Virus record (IMG/VR): IMGVR_UViG_3300035703_000256
Location: 1-35,047 of that record
Origin: a virus
Length of the DNA: 35,047 bases
Reading direction: 5' to 3' (one strand)
The translations under genes and the position numbers were made by a program. Positions 4,339 through 29,292 of this stretch are shown here, piece after piece. Position 1 is the first letter of the stretch; every line of letters starts with the position of its first letter. The notes under the pieces are model-generated. The model saw nothing but the letters and a program-made list of their open reading frames with translations. It had not been told where the DNA came from and made no database searches.

Positions 4339-5534
4339 TAATTATCTGCCTTTGGTGCTAATGCTTGGCTTAGTGTTTGACGCTGTTCTAATGTAGTGCC
4401 ATCACTAAGTTTTGTGCTTGCTGTATTATTAACAAACGAACTCTTTTGATTTTTAGAAGTATGTGGTAACTGTGGAGTACGCACATTATCTTCAACTTTA
4501 ATCCATTTGCGACCATTAAATCTAAATAGCCTATTAGGGAAATAATCTAAACGCAATACAAATTGTCCTTCAAATGGATCGTTTGGAAATATAGTTGATG
4601 CTGTAACTGGATGTCCGTTTGGTGCAAGTCCATCACCAAGCAAGTATCCATTATACCCACTCTTTTTAGGACTAATAGCTTCATAATCAACTGTGAAGTT
4701 TGTGCTATCTGCAAATACGTTTACTGCATCAGCAGTAACAAACCAATCACCACGTGAACTGCCATCTGGATTTGTTGGTAGTGTATAATACTTATCTGTA
4801 TCATATCCTGCTTTTGGAACCTCACGTAATGCTTGTTCGATAATAGCATCGTTGATTCCAATTTCTGTGTTGTATGTAGTATTGTTTCCGCCGCCTGGAT
4901 TATTACCTGGACTATCTGGAATGCCATCACCATCAGTATCAATTGGCGGATTAAGTATATCCTCATACTCTTGTCCAGCTGGCATTGGTGTTGCTTTAAC
5001 ACGCCATAAGTGAGGGAACCAAGTTGGACTGTATCCTTCACTAGCTCGCTGTGCATCTTGCACAACATAAAACTTTCTAAGGTACATTGGATTTGTTAGA
5101 TCCATAGGATTATAATCTCTCTGGTGAACTATTTCCAATACATCACCTGACATAACTTTGCGGCCCAAACGTTCAATCATGTCGTTTAAGTGGAAAGTTA
5201 TAAACAGTGTATCATTTTGTAAAAACAATCCAAATTGACTTAAATCAAAATCAATATCGCTTAGTGTGTAAACACCGCGTAGCGGATAAACATCGTCATC
5301 ATAGTTGCGACTGGTGTTTTCACCCCAAAGCAAATCTTCAATTGTTAACTCATTCCATATATCTGGTTTTGGTTTAGTTGCATCATCACCAGATGTTGCG
5401 GATTCTTTAGGACCAATATATTTGTGAATGTTGATAGTAGTGCCACCAACAGTGAATTGCTCGCGTATACGACCATCAAAGAAGCGGTAATCGTGAGTGT
5501 GAGCTCCTTCTTTCCATAATGATAATCTTGGCAC
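4338..5534 (-). CDS. gp14: Neck protein, gp14-like
   Basis: 398 residues from a GTG start at 5534. An AAAGGA ribosome site (plus-strand 5543-5548) sits 8 nt upstream and a TATAAATA promoter before it. The N-terminus MPRLSLWKEGAHTHDYRFFD and the core LWGENTSRNYDDDVYPLR, SQFGLFLQNDTLFITF and MSGDVLEIVHQRDYNPMD fit the gp14 family of marine T4-like phages and the general T4 gp14 pattern (LIFGED, FGIQINDEVTVSI, PKEGDLIYFP). gp14 sits in the neck between head portal and tail. It is longer than T4 gp14 (about 256); the extra C-terminal part carries a decoration-like segment RLFRFNGRKWIKVEDNV. First gene of a late operon gp14-gp15-Nudix, pointing away from gp13. Confidence 0.8.
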   Translation of the reverse strand: MPRLSLWKEGAHTHDYRFFDGRIREQFTVGGTTINIHKYIGPKESATSGDDATKPKPDIWNELTIEDLLWGENTSRNYDDDVYPLRGVYTLSDIDFDLSQFGLFLQNDTLFITFHLNDMIERLGRKVMSGDVLEIVHQRDYNPMDLTNPMYLRKFYVVQDAQRASEGYSPTWFPHLWRVKATPMPAGQEYEDILNPPIDTDGDGIPDSPGNNPGGGNNTTYNTEIGINDAIIEQALREVPKAGYDTDKYYTLPTNPDGSSRGDWFVTADAVNVFADSTNFTVDYEAISPKKSGYNGYLLGDGLAPNGHPVTASTIFPNDPFEGQFVLRLDYFPNRLFRFNGRKWIKVEDNVRTPQLPHTSKNQKSSFVNNTASTKLSDGTTLEQRQTLSQALAPKADN

Positions 5535-5555
5535 TGCTATATTCCTTTGTTCATA

Positions 5556-5563
5556 TATTTATA
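5556..5563 (-). promoter_or_regulatory. T4-type late promoter TATAAATA for gp14-gp15-Nudix
   Basis: Read on the reverse strand the sequence is exactly TATAAATA. With T4 spacing (element at -13 to -6) transcription would begin near 5550, just before AAAGGA and the GTG start of gp14, giving a leader of about 16 nt. Confidence 0.75.
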
Positions 5564-5565
5564 GG

Positions 5566-5593
5566 TTGACACGTATGAGTTGTATAGTAATAT
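5566..5593 (+). promoter_or_regulatory. Sigma70-like promoter TTGACA-16-TAATAT
   Basis: The -35 TTGACA is at 5566-5571 and a -10-like TAATAT at 5588-5593 with a 16-nt spacer. The expected start is near 5600, which is the A of the next ATG, so this transcript may also be leaderless. It lies back-to-back with the reverse-strand late promoter, 2 nt away. Confidence 0.5.
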
Positions 5594-5599
5594 GAAACT

Positions 5600-5872
5600 A
5601 TGAAACCTGGAGATAAAACACCATGCACCCCAGTAAAACTCTTACTGCAGGACTATCAAAAAGTTATAGTCCAAATTCGTGATGACGAGGGATTGCGTGC
5701 TACACTGTCTAATGTCCTAAAACGGGAAAAAGGATGGACATATAGACGTCCATATAACGACGATTGTGTATATATTGACTTTTGGACAGATAGTGCTAAG
5801 TCTATGTTTTTATTGACTTATTCGCACTTAATTGCTAAGTCTTTGAAATTGTACAATAAAAATAATGGTTGA
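5600..5872 (+). CDS. Conserved-type small hypothetical protein
   Basis: 90 residues, family not recognised. The sequence is soluble and charged: MKPGDKTPCTPVKLLLQDYQ at the start, then RDDEGLRATL, WTYRRPYNDDCVYIDFWTDS and a C-terminal helix-like LLTYSHLIAKSLKLYNK. No membrane segment or signal peptide. There is no Shine-Dalgarno before the ATG at 5600, and the upstream sigma70-like promoter would start transcription almost at the ATG. The stop codon overlaps the TTGACA of the next promoter. Expected to be an early or middle gene in an otherwise late region. Confidence 0.7.
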   Translation: MKPGDKTPCTPVKLLLQDYQKVIVQIRDDEGLRATLSNVLKREKGWTYRRPYNDDCVYIDFWTDSAKSMFLLTYSHLIAKSLKLYNKNNG

Positions 5873-5896
5873 CACTCCCCTGTTTTATGCTAAATT
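5869..5896 (+). promoter_or_regulatory. Sigma70-like promoter TTGACA-16-TAAATT
   Basis: TTGACA at 5869-5874 overlaps the upstream stop codon. TAAATT at 5891-5896 is a plausible -10 with a 16-nt spacer. A start near 5903 would leave a leader of about 23 nt containing AAAGGAAAGGGG before the ATG at 5926. Confidence 0.55.
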
Positions 5897-5925
5897 AAAG
5901 CATAACAAAGGAAAGGGGTTTCCCA

Positions 5926-6039
5926 ATGCGTAATCATGTTGCCAAAAGTTTGTGGACGCCCAAGTTCCGCAAACAAGTAATTAAGTCCAAAAAGGCTTAT
6001 ACTCGTAAAGAAAAGCATAAGGGAAAGATTGATGGTTAA
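5926..6039 (+). CDS. Very small basic protein (37 aa)
   Basis: ATG at 5926 follows the purine-rich AAAGGAAAGGGG site. The product starts MRNHVAKSLWTPKFRKQVIK and ends YTRKEKHKGKIDG. It is strongly basic (many Lys and Arg), has no hydrophobic segment, and could bind nucleic acid, but no function is known to me. Its TAA at 6037-6039 overlaps the next start by 8 nt, which suggests translational coupling. Position between a promoter and a long conserved gene, and good codon choice, support it as real. Confidence 0.7.
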   Translation: MRNHVAKSLWTPKFRKQVIKSKKAYTRKEKHKGKIDG

Positions 6040-7213
6040 AGCCGCAAAAGCTACTAAAACGGACAAGATTGCACATAAAGCAACTCGTCGTCTAAAAGCA
6101 CGTTACAGCGAAGCTGAGCTTAAAGCTACAGGTCCGCTGCCAGAGTGGCATGACATGGACAAGCTTACGCCCGAGCAGCACAAAGCACGTTGGCGTGATG
6201 CAAAGTTCTTTTATTACTATCATCACGATGCAAAGGAACTTCGTCCTTTCATTGTTGAACTGTACGGCAAAGATTGGAGTAAGAAGCAGCTCAAAGACTT
6301 TAACAAAGTCCGCGACGCTGTAATTAGCCCTCACCTCGGTGCTGTTTGCAAGATGGTGCTTGATGGTGCCTGCTGGCCTGAAGGTAGTAAGGAGTGGGCT
6401 GACAAGCAGGTAGCAAAGCTACTTGAAGTTGGAGCCGGGGAAGCAGATCCTGATGCACCCAAGGAAGAACCCAAAAGGGTCATCAACATTCAAGATCGCC
6501 TTAACGAAATCCGTGAGGAAACAATTGGTGACTTGGAGTGCATTGAGGACGAGTTCATTCGTACTCGCAAAATGCCCAATGTAAACATCATGACTTGGCT
6601 GCGTCAGAAGAATGTGCCGCAGCAGATCATCCCTGCTATGATTGATTTTTACGCAGAGCGACTTGCGTTTATGATGGAAGTTAAAGAGGGCAAGGATACT
6701 CAACTTAAGGAAGGCTATGCGCACCTTAAGAAGAAGGACATTGATGCGTGGATCAAGTGGTATAACGATATTATTACTGACCTTGATGGGTTTAAGCGTG
6801 TTAAGGTTGCTGCACGTAAGCCGCGTATGCGTAAGCCGCAGAGCCCTGAGAAGCTTGCACGTAAGATGAAGTTCCAAAAGGATGCACCTGATCTTGGAGT
6901 GACCAGTGTGCAGCCCAAGGAAATCGTTAACGCAACAGTAGTTTGGGTGTACAACACCAAGACACGCAAGCTTGGACGTTATGTTGCAAGCGAGCAAGAC
7001 AAGAGCATGACAGTAAAGGGCAGCACTATCCTCGGATGGGACCCCAAGCTAAGTATTGCTAAGACGCTCCGTAAACCTGCTGAACAACTTAAGGAGTTCA
7101 TGGGTAGCGGGAAAGTTCAACTCCGTACCTTCCTCGATAAGATCAAGGCAACTGAGGTGAAGCTAAACGGTCGCACTAACGATCAAACTATAATCCTCAG
7201 GGTTGACAAGTAA
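6032..7213 (+). CDS. Conserved hypothetical protein of marine myoviruses, 393 aa
   Basis: I take the ATG at 6032 rather than the TTG one codon earlier, because it overlaps the small gene in the usual coupled way. The protein is rich in Lys, Arg, Asp and Glu. The N-terminal half has KATRRLKARYSEAELKATG and RWRDAKFFYYYHHDAKELRP; residues about 150-265 look helical; the C-terminal part WVYNTKTRKLGRYVAS, GSTILGWDPKLSIAKTLRKP and KATEVKLNGRTNDQTIILRV reads like a small beta domain. I recall similar proteins in marine T4-like phages without an assigned role. Codon use differs from the neighbours: AAG, CGT and GAG are common and the stretch is clearly richer in G+C. That may mean high expression or separate origin. 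Confidence 0.8.
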   Translation: MVKAAKATKTDKIAHKATRRLKARYSEAELKATGPLPEWHDMDKLTPEQHKARWRDAKFFYYYHHDAKELRPFIVELYGKDWSKKQLKDFNKVRDAVISPHLGAVCKMVLDGACWPEGSKEWADKQVAKLLEVGAGEADPDAPKEEPKRVINIQDRLNEIREETIGDLECIEDEFIRTRKMPNVNIMTWLRQKNVPQQIIPAMIDFYAERLAFMMEVKEGKDTQLKEGYAHLKKKDIDAWIKWYNDIITDLDGFKRVKVAARKPRMRKPQSPEKLARKMKFQKDAPDLGVTSVQPKEIVNATVVWVYNTKTRKLGRYVASEQDKSMTVKGSTILGWDPKLSIAKTLRKPAEQLKEFMGSGKVQLRTFLDKIKATEVKLNGRTNDQTIILRVDK

Positions 7214-7224
7214 AGGAGATTGAT

Positions 7225-7500
7225 ATGACGGGTTTAATTATTCTTGGACTTATACTTTTAGCGCACGTTCTCATTATCGCTAAAATTGGGTTTGGTGGAC
7301 TAGTAGTTACCTATGTATTAGGTGCAATTATTTGGGTATTTTTTCCTGGGTATGATACTGGACTTGCTGGACTACTTGCTACTGAAATAGTGTTTGTTGG
7401 TTTAATAGCATTTGGTTCACTATTCCCAAGTGGTCCAAAAGGTATTGCTGCTGCTGGCGTAGGTGGTTACCTCGTTGGTCGCGGGCTAGCAAAACTTTAA
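7225..7500 (+). CDS. Small membrane protein, 91 aa
   Basis: ATG at 7225 follows AAAGGAG at 7213-7219. The product is very hydrophobic, with likely membrane spans at about residues 3-22, 25-43 and 48-67, then a Gly-rich end GIAAAGVGGYLVGRGLAKL. No signal-peptidase site is evident. A holin is conceivable from size and topology, but there is no lysozyme or endolysin gene nearby, so I leave it unassigned. Probably co-transcribed with the preceding 393-aa gene. Confidence 0.7.
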   Translation: MTGLIILGLILLAHVLIIAKIGFGGLVVTYVLGAIIWVFFPGYDTGLAGLLATEIVFVGLIAFGSLFPSGPKGIAAAGVGGYLVGRGLAKL

Positions 7501-7508
7501 TCAAAAGC

Positions 7509-7538
7509 GTTGCCATAGCTAAATATTGTTATGGCAAC
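7509..7538 (+). promoter_or_regulatory. Perfect 9-bp inverted repeat over the gp13 late promoter and start codon
   Basis: GTTGCCATA (7509-7517) and TATGGCAAC (7530-7538) are perfect inverted copies around a 12-nt loop that holds TAAATA. The right arm contains the gp13 ATG at 7531-7533. In RNA read through from upstream it would close the start codon in a stem; RNA begun at the late promoter would lack the left arm. Confidence 0.7.
7518..7525 (+). promoter_or_regulatory. T4-type late promoter GCTAAATA for gp13
   Basis: TAAATA ends at 7525, five nucleotides before the ATG at 7531. With T4 spacing the first transcribed base is the A of the start codon. There is no Shine-Dalgarno sequence, which fits a leaderless mRNA. 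Confidence 0.65.
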
Positions 7539-8286
7539 CTTACAAGAGTTAAAAACAGAAGTATTTGATTATGTACGTTATACTTTAGGTGATCAAATAG
7601 TAGACGTTGAGTTAGATCCAGTCCATTATGAAACTGCATTAAAGCAGGCATTATTAAAATATAGACAGCGCAGTGCAAATAGCGTGGAGGAAAGCTTTGC
7701 CTTTCTTCCACTTCTTACTGACATAGACACTTATACGTTGCCACAAGAAGTGATCAGTGTTAAGCAAGTTTATCGCCGCAGCATTGGATCAACTACATCA
7801 ACTGGTGCTACACAGTTTGAACCATTTGAAGCAGGGTTTTTAAATTTATACTTGCTACAAAGCGGTCGTGTTGGTGGCTATTTAAACTATGAACTATTTG
7901 CTCAATATCAAGAATTAAGTATGCGTATGTTTGGTGGATTTATTAACTTTAAGTTCAACAAAGTTAACAAAGAACTACACATATTTCGTCGTCCACGTAA
8001 TAGTGATGAAACTGTAATGTTACACACATACAACTATAAGCCAGATGTAACGTTACTTTCAGACTATATGGCATTTCCTTGGATAAAGGATTATACATTA
8101 GCAACTTGTAAAATGATGCTAGGCCAAGCTTACGAAAAGTTTGGTACTATAGCTGGACCACAAGGTGGTACTACATTAAATGGATCTTCTTTAAAAACAG
8201 AGGCACAAACTATGTTTGATAAACTGGAAGAAGACCTAAAAAATTATGTAGATGGTGGCGAACCGTACAGTTTTATTATTGGCTAA
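7531..8286 (+). CDS. gp13: Neck protein, gp13-like
   Basis: 251 residues. The order of features fits the gp13 neck family: an N-terminal helix pair with TLQELKTEVFDYVRYTLGDQ, DPVHYETALKQALLKYRQR, the strand TDIDTYTLPQEVISVKQVYR, a long middle with YLNYELFAQYQELSMRMFG, the strand FNKVNKELHIFRRP, and the C-terminal helices around FPWIKDYTLATCKMMLGQAY and TMFDKLEEDLKNYVDGGE. gp13 with gp14 closes the filled head and makes the tail docking site. It is somewhat shorter than T4 gp13 (about 309). No ribosome site precedes the ATG; the late promoter and a hairpin lie directly on it. It is on the opposite strand from gp14 and gp15. Confidence 0.75.
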   Translation: MATLQELKTEVFDYVRYTLGDQIVDVELDPVHYETALKQALLKYRQRSANSVEESFAFLPLLTDIDTYTLPQEVISVKQVYRRSIGSTTSTGATQFEPFEAGFLNLYLLQSGRVGGYLNYELFAQYQELSMRMFGGFINFKFNKVNKELHIFRRPRNSDETVMLHTYNYKPDVTLLSDYMAFPWIKDYTLATCKMMLGQAYEKFGTIAGPQGGTTLNGSSLKTEAQTMFDKLEEDLKNYVDGGEPYSFIIG

Positions 8287-9335: not shown

Positions 9336-9343
9336 ACTAAATA
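9336..9343 (+). promoter_or_regulatory. T4-type late promoter ACTAAATA for gp18
   Basis: ACTAAATA lies about 27 nt before the sheath ATG. The predicted start near 9349 leaves a short leader with AAGAAGGA at 9353-9360. A weak 5-bp inverted repeat (ACTAA 9336-9340, TTAGT 9347-9351) spans the element. Confidence 0.65.
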
Positions 9344-20788: not shown

Positions 20789-22153
20789 ATGAGTCTTAAA
20801 AAGTACTTAACAGAGGCTGAACTAGCAGCCGTTCAGCCCATAACTGGTGACGCATTTGACATCAGTATTAGAGAACTTACTAATATTGAAACTGTAGTAG
20901 TTGAGCATACTGAAGGTAGTATCACTATACAGTTAGATGATACTGCTATTAAGATGTTAGAAGAATGCGGTTGTACTTTTGAAGATGAACAACTTGATGA
21001 ACTTGCGCCAGTAATTGGCGCATTAGCACGTGGCGTTGCTGCTGGAGCAGGTGCTCTCGCTAGAGGTGCTGCTAAAGCTGCCGTTGGTACTGGGGTTAAG
21101 GCTGCTGCTGATAAGTTGGATAAAAAACTGTTTGGTCCTCGTCCTAGCGAAGGTGATTATGAATATGAAGAATCTGTTCGCGAGCAAGACGAAGATGAAG
21201 AAGACTATAGTCCACAAGTAGGTGATATAGTACAAGTAGTATACGAAACAGAACATGAAGGGCACTACGGCGAAGTTGTTGAATTAGCACCAAGCGGCGA
21301 ATGGGCTTATGTTCAATTTAAAGACGGTGATATTGAAGCATATCATGGAAGCGATCTTCGTCAAGCAACTGAACAAGAGGAAGAAGAATACTACTATGGT
21401 TCAGAAGATGAATTTGAAGAAAGCTTAAACTCTATCCGTAAACTTTCAGGTATGGCACCAAAAGAAGCAGTAAAGGAAGAAAGTTACGATAAATCATCTG
21501 GCAGTCCATATGATCGCGGCGCTGCTGATAGCTATTACGGAAGAAAAGCTCGCCCACATAAAATGGTCCCAGCTAGTGACGGTGTAAAAGGTCAGATGCA
21601 AATGGTATCATTAACTGATCCAAAAGAAATTGCTGCTTATAATGCTGGTTATAGCGAAAATGATGACCGTAAAAACTACGGCGAAGGTATTGAAGATTGG
21701 AATATGAAGGTTACATCAATACCACGTACAGAACCATTTCAACTTAAGAAGATTGTTGTTAAGTCAAAATTTGGCAAAACTTATACATTTGACACAGAAG
21801 AAGATGCTCGCAGGCATTTTGGTAGCAACTGGGATTCAAAGATTAATAATCCAGAATGGCGTGCAGCAAATGGCTGGAAACTGGAAATGAATAATACTAA
21901 GCCAGTAGATGAAGCAGAATACCGTGGTCGTAAGGTATCACTCGGTAAACCAATGCAAGGCGATGTCGCTAAGTTTAAAGTATATGTAAAAGACCCAAAA
22001 ACTGGTAATGTAAAGAAGGTCAACTTTGGTGACAAAACTATGCGTATTAAAAAAAGCAATCCAAAGCGCCGTAAGAGTTTCCGTGCAAGACATCGTTGTA
22101 AAAATCCCGGTCCTAGAACAAAAGCTCGTTACTGGTCATGCAGAGCTTGGTAA
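20789..22153 (+). CDS. Putative head-internal protein with KOW-like domain, 454 aa
   Basis: The start MSLKKYLTE|A fits a capsid-targeting peptide with an LTE|A protease site. Residues 72-112 are an Ala/Gly-rich amphipathic segment (GALARGVAAGAGALARGAAK). Residues 142-190 (PQVGDIVQVVYETEHEGHYG, then EVVELAPSGEWAYVQFKDGD) look like a KOW or Tudor-type SH3 barrel. LNSIRKLSG at 213-221 is the shared short motif. The C-terminal end FRARHRCKNPGPRTK, ARYWSCRAW, with two Cys and two Trp, is a pattern I recall from marine T4-like phage proteins of unknown role. The stop overlaps the GIY-YIG gene as TAATG. Confidence 0.65.
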   Translation: MSLKKYLTEAELAAVQPITGDAFDISIRELTNIETVVVEHTEGSITIQLDDTAIKMLEECGCTFEDEQLDELAPVIGALARGVAAGAGALARGAAKAAVGTGVKAAADKLDKKLFGPRPSEGDYEYEESVREQDEDEEDYSPQVGDIVQVVYETEHEGHYGEVVELAPSGEWAYVQFKDGDIEAYHGSDLRQATEQEEEEYYYGSEDEFEESLNSIRKLSGMAPKEAVKEESYDKSSGSPYDRGAADSYYGRKARPHKMVPASDGVKGQMQMVSLTDPKEIAAYNAGYSENDDRKNYGEGIEDWNMKVTSIPRTEPFQLKKIVVKSKFGKTYTFDTEEDARRHFGSNWDSKINNPEWRAANGWKLEMNNTKPVDEAEYRGRKVSLGKPMQGDVAKFKVYVKDPKTGNVKKVNFGDKTMRIKKSNPKRRKSFRARHRCKNPGPRTKARYWSCRAW

Positions 22154-22761
22154 TGAATTACATTATCTATAAAATTCAAAACAATATAAACGGCAAATAT
22201 TACATTGGACGACACGCGACTAAAAACACACATGATTCATACATGGGAAGCGGTCGTGGAATTAGAAATGCTATTTCTAAATATGGAATAGAAAATTTTA
22301 CTAAAGAAATTATTGCTGTTGCAGACAGCGCAGAAAAACTATGGGAATTAGAAAAAGAAATAGTAAATGAAGATGTAGTTAAAGATCCAATGTCATATAA
22401 TGTAGCCTACGGTGGTAAACATTATTTGCACGGGCTAAAAGAATACAACTACGATGCATTTATTGAACACCAAAGAAAAGCAGGTCAATCTTACGCAAAA
22501 AATTTTAAAGGTAAGGAAAAGCAGTGGCATCAAAAAGGTGGAGCAACCTCTTCCCGTATGAGAAGCGAACAATACATTTACAAAATTACAACTAATATTG
22601 GCGAAGAATTTATTGTAAACGGTATACAATTTAAAGAACTGTGTAAAGAAAAAGAGTGGAATTATAATACGCTTCATTGGAAACAAAGTATAGGCAGAAT
22701 TATTGCTAAAGGAAAACATAAAGGATTTCTTGTAGAACAAATAAGTAGTTACAGGAAGTAA
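22153..22761 (+). CDS. GIY-YIG family endonuclease (Seg-like)
   Basis: 202 residues from ATG 22153, which overlaps the previous stop; an in-frame ATG at 22138 lies within the upstream gene. The domain starts YIIYKI (3-8) and KYYIGRH (15-21), the GIY and YIG elements, then SYMGSGRGIRNAISKYGIEN and the segment AEKLWELEKEIVNED with the expected Glu helix, and NVAYGGKHYLHG. The C-terminal third (VNGIQFKELCKEKEWNYNTL) looks like a helix-turn-helix DNA-binding part as in NUMOD-bearing homing enzymes. Probably a free-standing homing endonuclease that cuts phage DNA lacking the gene and spreads it by repair. Confidence 0.8.
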   Translation: MNYIIYKIQNNINGKYYIGRHATKNTHDSYMGSGRGIRNAISKYGIENFTKEIIAVADSAEKLWELEKEIVNEDVVKDPMSYNVAYGGKHYLHGLKEYNYDAFIEHQRKAGQSYAKNFKGKEKQWHQKGGATSSRMRSEQYIYKITTNIGEEFIVNGIQFKELCKEKEWNYNTLHWKQSIGRIIAKGKHKGFLVEQISSYRK

Positions 22762-25031: not shown

Positions 25032-25044
25032 AATAAATATTTAC
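25032..25044. promoter_or_regulatory. Divergent late promoter on the palindrome TAAATATTTA
   Basis: Forward AATAAATA (25032-25039) ends five nt before the ATG at 25045. Reverse GTAAATA (25044-25038) reads toward the HNH gene, with a predicted start near 25032 and GGAG before GTG 25021. Both share the palindrome at 25034-25043, so one site could drive both strands. Confidence 0.55.
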
Positions 25045-25293
25045 ATGACCAAACAAACGTTTGATGAAAGATTGACTACAATCCAAATATATTACTATAT
25101 TCCGGATTACCAAAGCTTACTCCAAGAGTTTATATGGCAAACTGTGGATAGTCAACCGGATTTCCCTAGAACGCACCAATTTTTGAACTATTGGCGCTGT
25201 AATATAGATGCACGTATACATACTATATATTTGGCACACATCGATTTGTGGGGAAATTTGACTTTTAAAAACATTACTAAGGAAATAAATTAA
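25045..25293 (+). CDS. Small conserved-type protein just upstream of gp17, 82 aa
   Basis: I choose ATG 25045, giving MTKQTFDERLTTIQIYYYIP; a longer frame from 24952 runs through the opposite HNH gene and its promoter. The body DYQSLLQEFIWQTVDSQPDF, PRTHQFLNYWRCNIDARIHT is helical and rich in aromatic residues. I recall similar small proteins before terminase genes in cyanophages, without a defined role. It has no ribosome site and a late promoter five nt upstream. The stop overlaps the gp17 ATG as TAATG, so it may set gp17 translation. It does not look like the small terminase, which is at 15468. Confidence 0.65.
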   Translation: MTKQTFDERLTTIQIYYYIPDYQSLLQEFIWQTVDSQPDFPRTHQFLNYWRCNIDARIHTIYLAHIDLWGNLTFKNITKEIN

Positions 25294-26879: not shown

Positions 26880-26887
26880 ACTAAATA
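26880..26887 (+). promoter_or_regulatory. T4-type late promoter ACTAAATA
   Basis: ACTAAATA ends five nt before the ATG at 26893, and no Shine-Dalgarno lies between. Transcription would begin on or next to the start codon. Confidence 0.6.
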
Positions 26888-26892
26888 CACAC

Positions 26893-29292
26893 ATGAAACC
26901 AGTTGATAAAACCAGCGAAGATTTATTTCAAAAACTACGTAGTCGTTTTAGTCCAGTAAGTATGGGCGACGAAAATGCTGATGAAACTGCTACTCCAGCA
27001 GATGCTCGTATCTTTAACTTTATGTATAAAGAAAATGGTGAAGAAATAGGGTACATCAGTATAAGCATAATTGATAACCGTAGTTTTAAAGTATATTACG
27101 GAACAGATCTAGTTGATCGTATTCAAAACAAGACCGACTGGTATAATTTATTAAAAGAATTACGAATGTTTGCCAAGCGTAATCTAATGAGCTTTGATGC
27201 AAGAGACCTTGCTAAAAATCAACTTGAACCAAGAGACTTTAAATTTATTAGTAGTCAAGATAAAACTTATAAGGAACATGAAGTGACTGTATCAGAAAGT
27301 GTAATGTTTGGTAGTCGTCGTAAGAGCTATCAAACAATGGAAAACGTAAAGATGATTGTAAATCATCGTAAGTCAATTGATGAAACAATCCCAGGCGCAC
27401 GCAGCCGCTATATTGAAAGCATCTACTTAGAGCGTGCTGACGGCGAACGTTACAAGTTCCCTTATAATTATCTAACTGGTGCACGAGCAATGGCACGTCA
27501 CGTTAATGAAGGTGGCAATCCATACGATGATATGGGTAAGCATATTGTTAACATGATCAAAGAAATGCGTGATCTTAGCAAGTTTGCACGCCGCACTAAG
27601 AAACATGCCATGGAAGATGAAAATGCTGGTGGAATTCGTAACAGCGTAGTTGAGCGTTTCCACAGCATGAAGAAGCAACTTGGTGCTATGAGTGTAAAAG
27701 AAGGATACGCTCGTTTTGTTGAAAACTTTAGCGCAGAAGAAGCACTTGTAGAAGACGATGCAATCAATCAAATCAAAGAAAGATTTACACAACAAGTATT
27801 CGATACACAGTTAGAAGATACGCTACCTGCTGTTATGAAAGCAATTAAGGAAGCACAAATGAAGCAAGTTGCTGAAGCAAACACAACAATTCCTAGTTTG
27901 ATTAAGAGCAGTCCACTTGTATTGCGTAAGGATGATGCTGCTGATAACATGTTCCGTACAACTAAGTTTACTGATGGTGCAGGATTGCTTGGATTTATTT
28001 TAAGTGATATCGCAAGTCGCGCTATTGGCGACAATGCAGATGAAATTGCTAACTTTGCTTCCGATGCAGCAGAACGTGTTCAAGATAAAGATTATGATCA
28101 AGGTGATAAGCAAACAGCAATGATGCTTGCCAAGAAGTATATGGATGATGTTAAGAAGATGACATCAGATCCAAGCTACAAAGATGAAGTTCGTATGGAT
28201 CCAAAAAACATCTACGGTAAGATGAAAAAGCGTGAAGGCGGTTTCCACGAATCAGAAGCTTACGAAGCATGGGCAAACGATTTAGTTCCAGAAAATAGCG
28301 TAAAAAAAAAGTTTGAAGCAACTACACAAGGTACAGTAGGCACACAAGGTACACAAGCGCCAGCAAATGTTGGACAGGCACTTCGTGATCCTAACTTACA
28401 AAAAGCCGCTAAAAATGTTAGTCGTGTAACACAAGCTGCTGGTATTAAAGCGCCTCCTAATCAAATTGCACAAGGCATGGCAGCACAAGCTACTGGTAAG
28501 ATGCCACCAAAACAAACTATGCAAACAATTGGTGGACTTGGTAATACAATTATGCAAGCCGCAGCAAGTGACCCACGTAAAGCAGCACAACTTACTGCTA
28601 TGATGAAGAAGATGGTTACACAAGGTAAGTTTGATGAAGATGCTGTTAGAAAAGTTTTAGAAGCACCAGCATCAACAGTAATCAACGATCCAAAAACAAA
28701 TACTTCAACAGTATTTAAAATACCAGGATCAACTCCAGCACAACCAAAAGGTATGCAGCAATGGCTTTATGGAACCGGACAAAATCAAACACCTTCCACT
28801 CCTGCTGCACCATCGCAAGTAAAACCAGCAACTCCAACAGCGCAGTTTGATAAAACACAAAGCGCAATGCCTGATATGGATGCAATGGTTGGTCAAGAAA
28901 AAGCAAAAGTAACACCAACTGCTCCATTAATAGGAAAAGATCCTGCTGTAGCAAAAGCGTTAGCAGCAAAAGGATTTGATCCAACAGGTAAAAAGATTAC
29001 AGCTATCCCAGCACAAGCTGGAGCAGCAAGAGCAAACATACCAACTGGTTCAATGCCTGCTGCTAAAATGCCTTCAATACCAACAAACACTGGTGCAGCT
29101 AAAGCAAACATACCAGTTGGATCAATGCCAGCAAGTACCGGATACACAGTTAAAGCAGGTGATAATTTAACTAATATTCTTAAAGGAAAAGGTATGGCAC
29201 CAACTCCAGACAACATAGCTAAGATCGCTAAATTGAGTGGAATTGCAAATCCTAATATGATCAAACCAGGTCAAACAATTAAATTCAATTAA
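26893..29292 (+). CDS. Large virion-type protein with C-terminal LysM domain, 799 aa
   Basis: The N-terminal 130 residues (RIFNFMYKENGEEIGYISIS, IIDNRSFKVYYGTDLV, WYNLLKELRMFAKRNLM) look like an alpha/beta domain. Residues 130-470 are mostly helical and charged, with NVKMIVNHRKSIDETIPGAR, RYIESIYLERADGERYKFPY and a long helix DLSKFARRTKKHAMEDE. Residues 470-750 are Ala/Pro/Gln/Thr-rich, including two copies of a unit like AARANIPTGSMPAAKMPS. The end GYTVKAGDNLTNILKGKG, followed by IAKIAKLSG and MIKPGQTIKFN, is a LysM peptidoglycan-binding domain. A structural protein that meets the cell wall during entry or release is plausible. Late promoter without ribosome site. Confidence 0.75.
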   Translation: MKPVDKTSEDLFQKLRSRFSPVSMGDENADETATPADARIFNFMYKENGEEIGYISISIIDNRSFKVYYGTDLVDRIQNKTDWYNLLKELRMFAKRNLMSFDARDLAKNQLEPRDFKFISSQDKTYKEHEVTVSESVMFGSRRKSYQTMENVKMIVNHRKSIDETIPGARSRYIESIYLERADGERYKFPYNYLTGARAMARHVNEGGNPYDDMGKHIVNMIKEMRDLSKFARRTKKHAMEDENAGGIRNSVVERFHSMKKQLGAMSVKEGYARFVENFSAEEALVEDDAINQIKERFTQQVFDTQLEDTLPAVMKAIKEAQMKQVAEANTTIPSLIKSSPLVLRKDDAADNMFRTTKFTDGAGLLGFILSDIASRAIGDNADEIANFASDAAERVQDKDYDQGDKQTAMMLAKKYMDDVKKMTSDPSYKDEVRMDPKNIYGKMKKREGGFHESEAYEAWANDLVPENSVKKKFEATTQGTVGTQGTQAPANVGQALRDPNLQKAAKNVSRVTQAAGIKAPPNQIAQGMAAQATGKMPPKQTMQTIGGLGNTIMQAAASDPRKAAQLTAMMKKMVTQGKFDEDAVRKVLEAPASTVINDPKTNTSTVFKIPGSTPAQPKGMQQWLYGTGQNQTPSTPAAPSQVKPATPTAQFDKTQSAMPDMDAMVGQEKAKVTPTAPLIGKDPAVAKALAAKGFDPTGKKITAIPAQAGAARANIPTGSMPAAKMPSIPTNTGAAKANIPVGSMPASTGYTVKAGDNLTNILKGKGMAPTPDNIAKIAKLSGIANPNMIKPGQTIKFN

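Follow-up and report, generated by a model that had tools for sequence, protein, structure and literature searches.

The stretch of DNA analysed here, hereafter the window, consists of 35,047 nucleotides, positions 1 to 35,047 of the virus record IMGVR_UViG_3300035703_000256, and is a genome fragment that is not expected to hold every gene, for instance that of a gp55-type sigma factor. On its plus strand is located a gene for a gp13-like neck protein (head-tail adaptor) of 251 amino acids (7531..8286; phrog_211, E 6e-31), of which the MATL start is kept in relatives. Upstream on the same strand are an ORF of 90 amino acids (5600..5872), a gene matching phrog_11903 with function not assigned (6029..7213, E 3e-66; about 394 amino acids, the true start of which may differ), and a small membrane-protein-like ORF of 91 amino acids (7225..7500), the stop codon of which lies 30 nt before the gp13 ATG. 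Among named phages, the closest at the protein level are large and T4-related, including Phosso, Atu_ph07, XaC1, PA5oct, Munch, 121Q, and GAP32. A GIY-YIG-like homing endonuclease gene (PHROGs match) was also found at 22138-22758, among the structural genes.

Late boxes stand before structural genes in the window, and the box of gp13 is CTAAATA (7519..7525, plus strand), with TAAATA at 7520-7525. The late box of T4 spans -13 to -6, and Aeh1 uses CTAAATA (PMC1524935). By the T4 box distance, the late RNA of gp13 is predicted to start on the A of the ATG at 7531, only 5 nt downstream of the box, and no Shine-Dalgarno site was found before this ATG. Among the relatives of the window, the TAAATA-to-ATG spacer shows a sharp peak at 5 nt (33 cases, including related contigs with shared sequence, versus about 5 at most other spacers), and the 338-kb contig of L014 carries 19 TAAATA boxes with the 5-nt spacer to ATG. 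GAP32, XaC1, 121Q, and Munch show no such peak, the commonest spacers there being longer, about 27-36 nt. A late sigma factor of the gp55-like family phrog_12791 is encoded by the 338-kb relative G007, GAP32, XaC1, 121Q, and Munch. Two more exact TAAATA-N5-ATG sequences are located in the window, at 25034-25047 (ahead of the ORF immediately preceding the terminase gene) and 26882-26895 (ahead of a structural gene), where the late starts are leaderless by prediction and lack a hairpin. In five other gp13 leaders (L078, L082, L088, L091, and L123), two outward-facing late boxes, TATTTATCG..CGATAAATA, are placed between gp13 and its neighbour, which is a divergent gene in most of the leaders examined, and likely form a two-way late promoter.

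The late box of gp13 is enclosed by an inverted repeat, which starts 9 nt past the upstream stop codon. The arms GTTGCCATA (7509-7517) and TATGGCAAC (7530-7538) are exact reverse complements of 9 bp, as a preliminary description of this DNA had claimed, and the gp13 ATG (7531-7533) is located inside the right arm. The stem is in fact longer than was then described: by addition of G-U and C-G pairs inward, it reaches 11 pairs (7509-7519 with 7528-7538), formed by the left arm GTTGCCATAGC (7509..7519), upstream of the predicted late start, and the right arm GTTATGGCAAC (7528..7538), which holds the start codon and codons 2 and 3. The TAAATA box fills the loop of 8 nt, TAAATATT (7520-7527), in agreement with the earlier statement that the arms flank the late promoter. 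The predicted folding energy of the 46-nt segment was -19.1 kcal/mol, compared with a mean of -5.8 for shuffled sequences (z -5.7), and none of 200 shuffles was as good. When RNA was taken from 7531, the left arm was missing and the start region was predicted to be unstructured, as the preliminary description had supposed for late RNA. The hairpin region matched no Rfam family, and a DNA search of a phage collection with this region gave no match.

For perfect 9-bp inverted repeats (loop 3-20 nt), 12 overlapping matches were counted in the window versus 4.3 +/- 2.6 expected from a first-order Markov model, and for those with at least four G+C, 2 versus 0.7. The bare repeat is not rare; what is beyond chance is that it encloses the late box, includes the start codon, and is retained in relatives.

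As to the source of RNA entering gp13 from upstream, two sigma70-like promoters are located on the plus strand: TTGACA-16-TAATAT at 5566..5593, a candidate source of early readthrough, and TTGACA-16-TAAATT at 5869..5896, with TG before the second box. The promoter scan itself was at chance level (12 found versus 11.8 expected), and therefore the useful part is the conservation of these two promoters: both are present at matching places in the L003 contig (at 21404 and 21101, respectively) with the hexamers largely kept and the spacers changed. No exact TAAATA was found on the plus strand from 4523 to 7520, the region of the three upstream same-strand ORFs, and no terminator-like site was called on that strand between the upstream genes and gp13. 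Judged from sequence, the genes at 5.6-7.5 kb are probably early.

The pairing was then compared over 125 loci encoding gp13 relatives (a few of which overlap) and eight named phages. Among six near relatives matched to the window in register, 92.4% of the stem cells pair, versus 28-49% after a shift of the partner by 1-3 columns; four of the 11 stem pairs are altered on both sides, and the covariation score was 0.53 versus 0.21 in shuffles, none of 500 of which reached it, nor did any of the shifted versions. Examples of compensated arms are GGTAGCCATGCA/TGCATGGCTACC in L007 and AGGTGGCCAcGCT/AGCaTGGCCACCT in L013, while two stem pairs of L003 are retained as G-U. The sequences of this covariation test had been chosen in one register, whereas those of the arm-swap test were not so chosen: with 53 dereplicated gp13 leaders, the pairing energies of the own halves summed to -415.7 kcal/mol versus -211 +/- 19 for swapped halves (z -10.9), and none of 20000 permutations reached the observed energy (p about 5e-5). 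Swapping of the arms thus costs about half of the pairing energy, and the 24 leaderless leaders alone gave the same direction. Covariation of the two arms in related phages, proposed in the preliminary description as a check, was hence detected. A strand test of G-U versus A-C gave an excess of G-U, but the control hairpins showed the same. In L002 and L005, gp13 is at least 90% identical to that of the window, the upstream DNA is different, and the hairpins around the late box are built differently, the left arm of L005 overlapping the last codons of the upstream ORF.

A significant nested hairpin was identified in 17 of the 53 gp13 leaders (p up to 0.035; about 2 of 53 expected). Its presence goes with the direction of the upstream gene, as it was found in 16 of 34 leaders with a same-direction upstream gene versus one of 18 with a divergent gene (Fisher p 0.002, approximate because the gene calls are naive and the leaders are related), yet in some relatives (L014, L018, and L046) the upstream gene has the same direction and no significant hairpin is present. 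Of the window's late boxes close to ORF starts, that of gp13 alone has a nested hairpin; the promoter of the tail-sheath gene, at 9338, comes after an opposite-strand ORF. For 13 genomes or contigs, a strong hairpin across the predicted start was detected at 40 of 412 TAAATA boxes located up to 45 nt before ORF starts versus four of 448 control hexamers, taken away from any late box (ATAAAT and TATAAA overlap it), that is about 10% versus 1% (odds ratio 12, p 8e-10). Taken alone, neither Munch nor contig G008 showed significant enrichment relative to the control hexamers. When T4 was used as a positive control, the test recovered e, soc, 26, and I-TevII, all of which are published hairpin cases (PMC3014915, PMC2988022), and in addition 53. 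The right arm elsewhere contains Shine-Dalgarno letters in many cases and the start codon in others, and the tail-sheath genes of G007, G009, and G010 carry related hairpins with changed sequence.

Support of a weak kind for the hairpin design was also given by a pattern scan, in which, among the matches listed, 35 of 119 with the pairing arm were true ORF starts versus 42 of 240 with scrambled arms (p 0.008, the matches not being dereplicated), and stems longer by at least three pairs were found in seven of 84 versus five of 168. Pattern scanning also gave long perfect hairpins around TAAATA and the ATG of a long ORF in the phage contigs L288 (near 187), L364 (near 2867), and L365 (near 4454). 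Two other arrangements were observed. In the gp13 leaders L055, L061, L064, L069, and L076, a leadered design AGTGTAT..AAGGATACACT is present, with a left arm that extends up to the predicted late start and a loop that contains the ribosome site; this design does not reach significance when compared with shuffles, as its left arm shares letters with the box, which is kept fixed. In L067 and L074, the late box lies within a palindrome, TTACATGTA..TACATGTAA, which stops short of the start codon.

We propose, with a probability of roughly 0.7, that the repeat acts as an RNA hairpin with a nested late promoter, which keeps gp13 silent on readthrough RNA. Readthrough RNA from the genes at 5.6-7.5 kb would carry both arms and fold, so that the gp13 AUG and first codons would be closed, whereas a gp55-type sigma factor at the TAAATA box would direct late RNA starting at the A of the AUG or beside it; this RNA, without the left arm, would expose an open 5' AUG and be translated as a leaderless message. 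The early/late switch would then be protein-free, with the transcription start setting whether the start codon is open. The scheme supposes that early transcription reads through into gp13, that the late start is placed exactly as predicted, and that translation is repressed by the fold. By analogy with T4 gene e, its likely function is to prevent late-gene expression from early readthrough RNA. The AUG on readthrough RNA, having no Shine-Dalgarno site, may be weak anyway, in which case the hairpin might do little, and a ribosome that terminates at 7500 would reach as far as the left arm and could open the hairpin.

A different role, in transcription, is suggested by other members of the group. 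In the jumbo phages XaC1, GAP32, Munch, and 121Q, the late box of gp13 is placed within a hairpin, either in its left arm or in its loop, and this hairpin is followed by a U-tract just before the ATG; a U-tract hairpin likewise encloses the gp13 late box in L036, L037, and L047; terminator-like hairpins similar to those of gp13 also precede other genes. RNA from these late boxes would carry little or none of the left arm and would escape termination, because late RNA starts past the left arm. This form is like that of the window in that the gene is the same, the late box is in the hairpin, and the late RNA is without the left arm, but differs in that the U-tract before the ATG predicts a stop of transcription instead of hiding of the AUG. 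The loops are long for terminators. No description of such a terminator form at a late box was found in the open-access literature; in the paper on CBB, the late motif ATAAATA, which is predicted in GAP32 as well, and the terminators are noted apart from each other (PMC5259590). A hairpin CTCCAAG..CTTGGAG with a T-run was also observed around the late box of one gene in GAP32 (235878), XaC1 (270476), 121Q (35043), and Munch (239032), and the gene is the same in all four phages, as indicated by a shared 20-letter protein sequence or close variant. The hairpin of the window could accordingly be read as a terminator or pause site before a late gene, in decayed or Rho-assisted form, from which the late start in the loop escapes. 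We regard this as unlikely for gp13 of the window, where CTTACAAG follows directly 3' of the stem without the U-tract that, together with a G+C-rich stem, marks an intrinsic terminator, and where no terminator-like call was made; masking better accounts for the position of the ATG within the arm and for the strong covariation across coding letters.

The centring of the repeat on the promoter would also suit a DNA palindrome, serving as an operator for a protein or forming a cruciform at the late promoter, and T4 I-TevI is known to bind an operator over its own late promoter (PMC2988022). This reading is quite improbable, as the arm letters vary freely among relatives while complementarity is kept, unlike a fixed binding site, two stem pairs of L003 are kept as G-U, and in several sister cases the right arm carries Shine-Dalgarno letters, or a U-tract is present on one side only.

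With its position so close behind the upstream stop codon, the hairpin might instead mainly protect or process the 3' end of the upstream mRNA, as a stability element or RNase site, its overlap with the start codon being incidental. Hairpins after stop codons can stabilise mRNA. Little probability is given to this role, however, because the hairpin is tied to the late box and the start codon, is rare at control hexamers before ORF starts, and in L005 has its left arm within the last codons of the upstream ORF. A chance repeat, to which the number of 9-bp matches in the window and the quite different letters at the hairpin of the close relative L002 might point, is very improbable in view of the covariation, the arm-swap result, the genome-wide enrichment, and the conservation of pairing under sequence change.

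Beyond the masking of gp13 in the window, the nested late-promoter hairpin might represent a general early/late insulator of large T4-related phages, for which we put the odds at about even. The slot before gp13 would then be filled variously, by a mask of a leaderless AUG, a mask of a ribosome site, or an intrinsic terminator that late RNA escapes, and after replacement of the upstream DNA the device would be built anew from different sequence. In jumbo phages, late genes are packed on the same strand behind early ones, and to our knowledge, little work has addressed how the making of late proteins from early RNA is prevented. With a promoter nested in a hairpin, no protein is required, as the point at which the RNA starts determines whether the gene is read. 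If true, the proposal explains which late promoters bear hairpins, namely those behind same-direction upstream genes, and provides a sequence rule by which early-to-late boundaries could be located in phages that have not been cultured, as well as a compact promoter design for reporters that is proof against readthrough. Since the terminator form exists in named, cultured phages, the idea is testable now.

Among known systems, the closest is T4 gene e, in which a late promoter is nested in a hairpin, early RNA hides the initiation region, and late RNA lacks the 5' strand (PMC3014915). The preliminary description had drawn on this likeness while setting gp13 apart by the promoter forming the loop. 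Its masking logic gains from the conserved pairing and from the association with same-direction upstream genes, but the contrast with T4 e was wrong: the predicted fold of T4 e has the same geometry, with an 8-nt loop beginning with TAAATA, and a promoter loop peculiar to gp13 was accordingly rejected. The two differ in that T4 e hides its Shine-Dalgarno sequence and its late RNA keeps a short leader, whereas the window hairpin would hide the AUG and following codons of a predicted leaderless message without Shine-Dalgarno sequence; T4 e encodes lysozyme for lysis, and the gene of the window a neck protein. Late genes within early units are also known for T4 soc, 26, 49, I-TevI, I-TevII, I-TevIII, and segB, and for Aeh1 mobE (PMC3014915, PMC2988022), which share with the window an initiation region closed in the long RNA but mask the ribosome site of leadered messages. 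In the open-access literature on these T4 and Aeh1 late-gene hairpins, no leaderless masking form was found. The masked element is worded in PMC3014915 as a sequestered Shine-Dalgarno and/or AUG start codon, and in the window the AUG lies in the predicted stem. A stable hairpin, the placement of the late box, conserved pairing, and same-strand upstream genes without a terminator are likewise all present, and on every feature that sequence allows to be examined, the window hairpin fits the T4 e kind. What is new with respect to these systems is a form in which the AUG of a predicted leaderless message is masked, the recurrence of this form, and the existence of a terminator-like variant.
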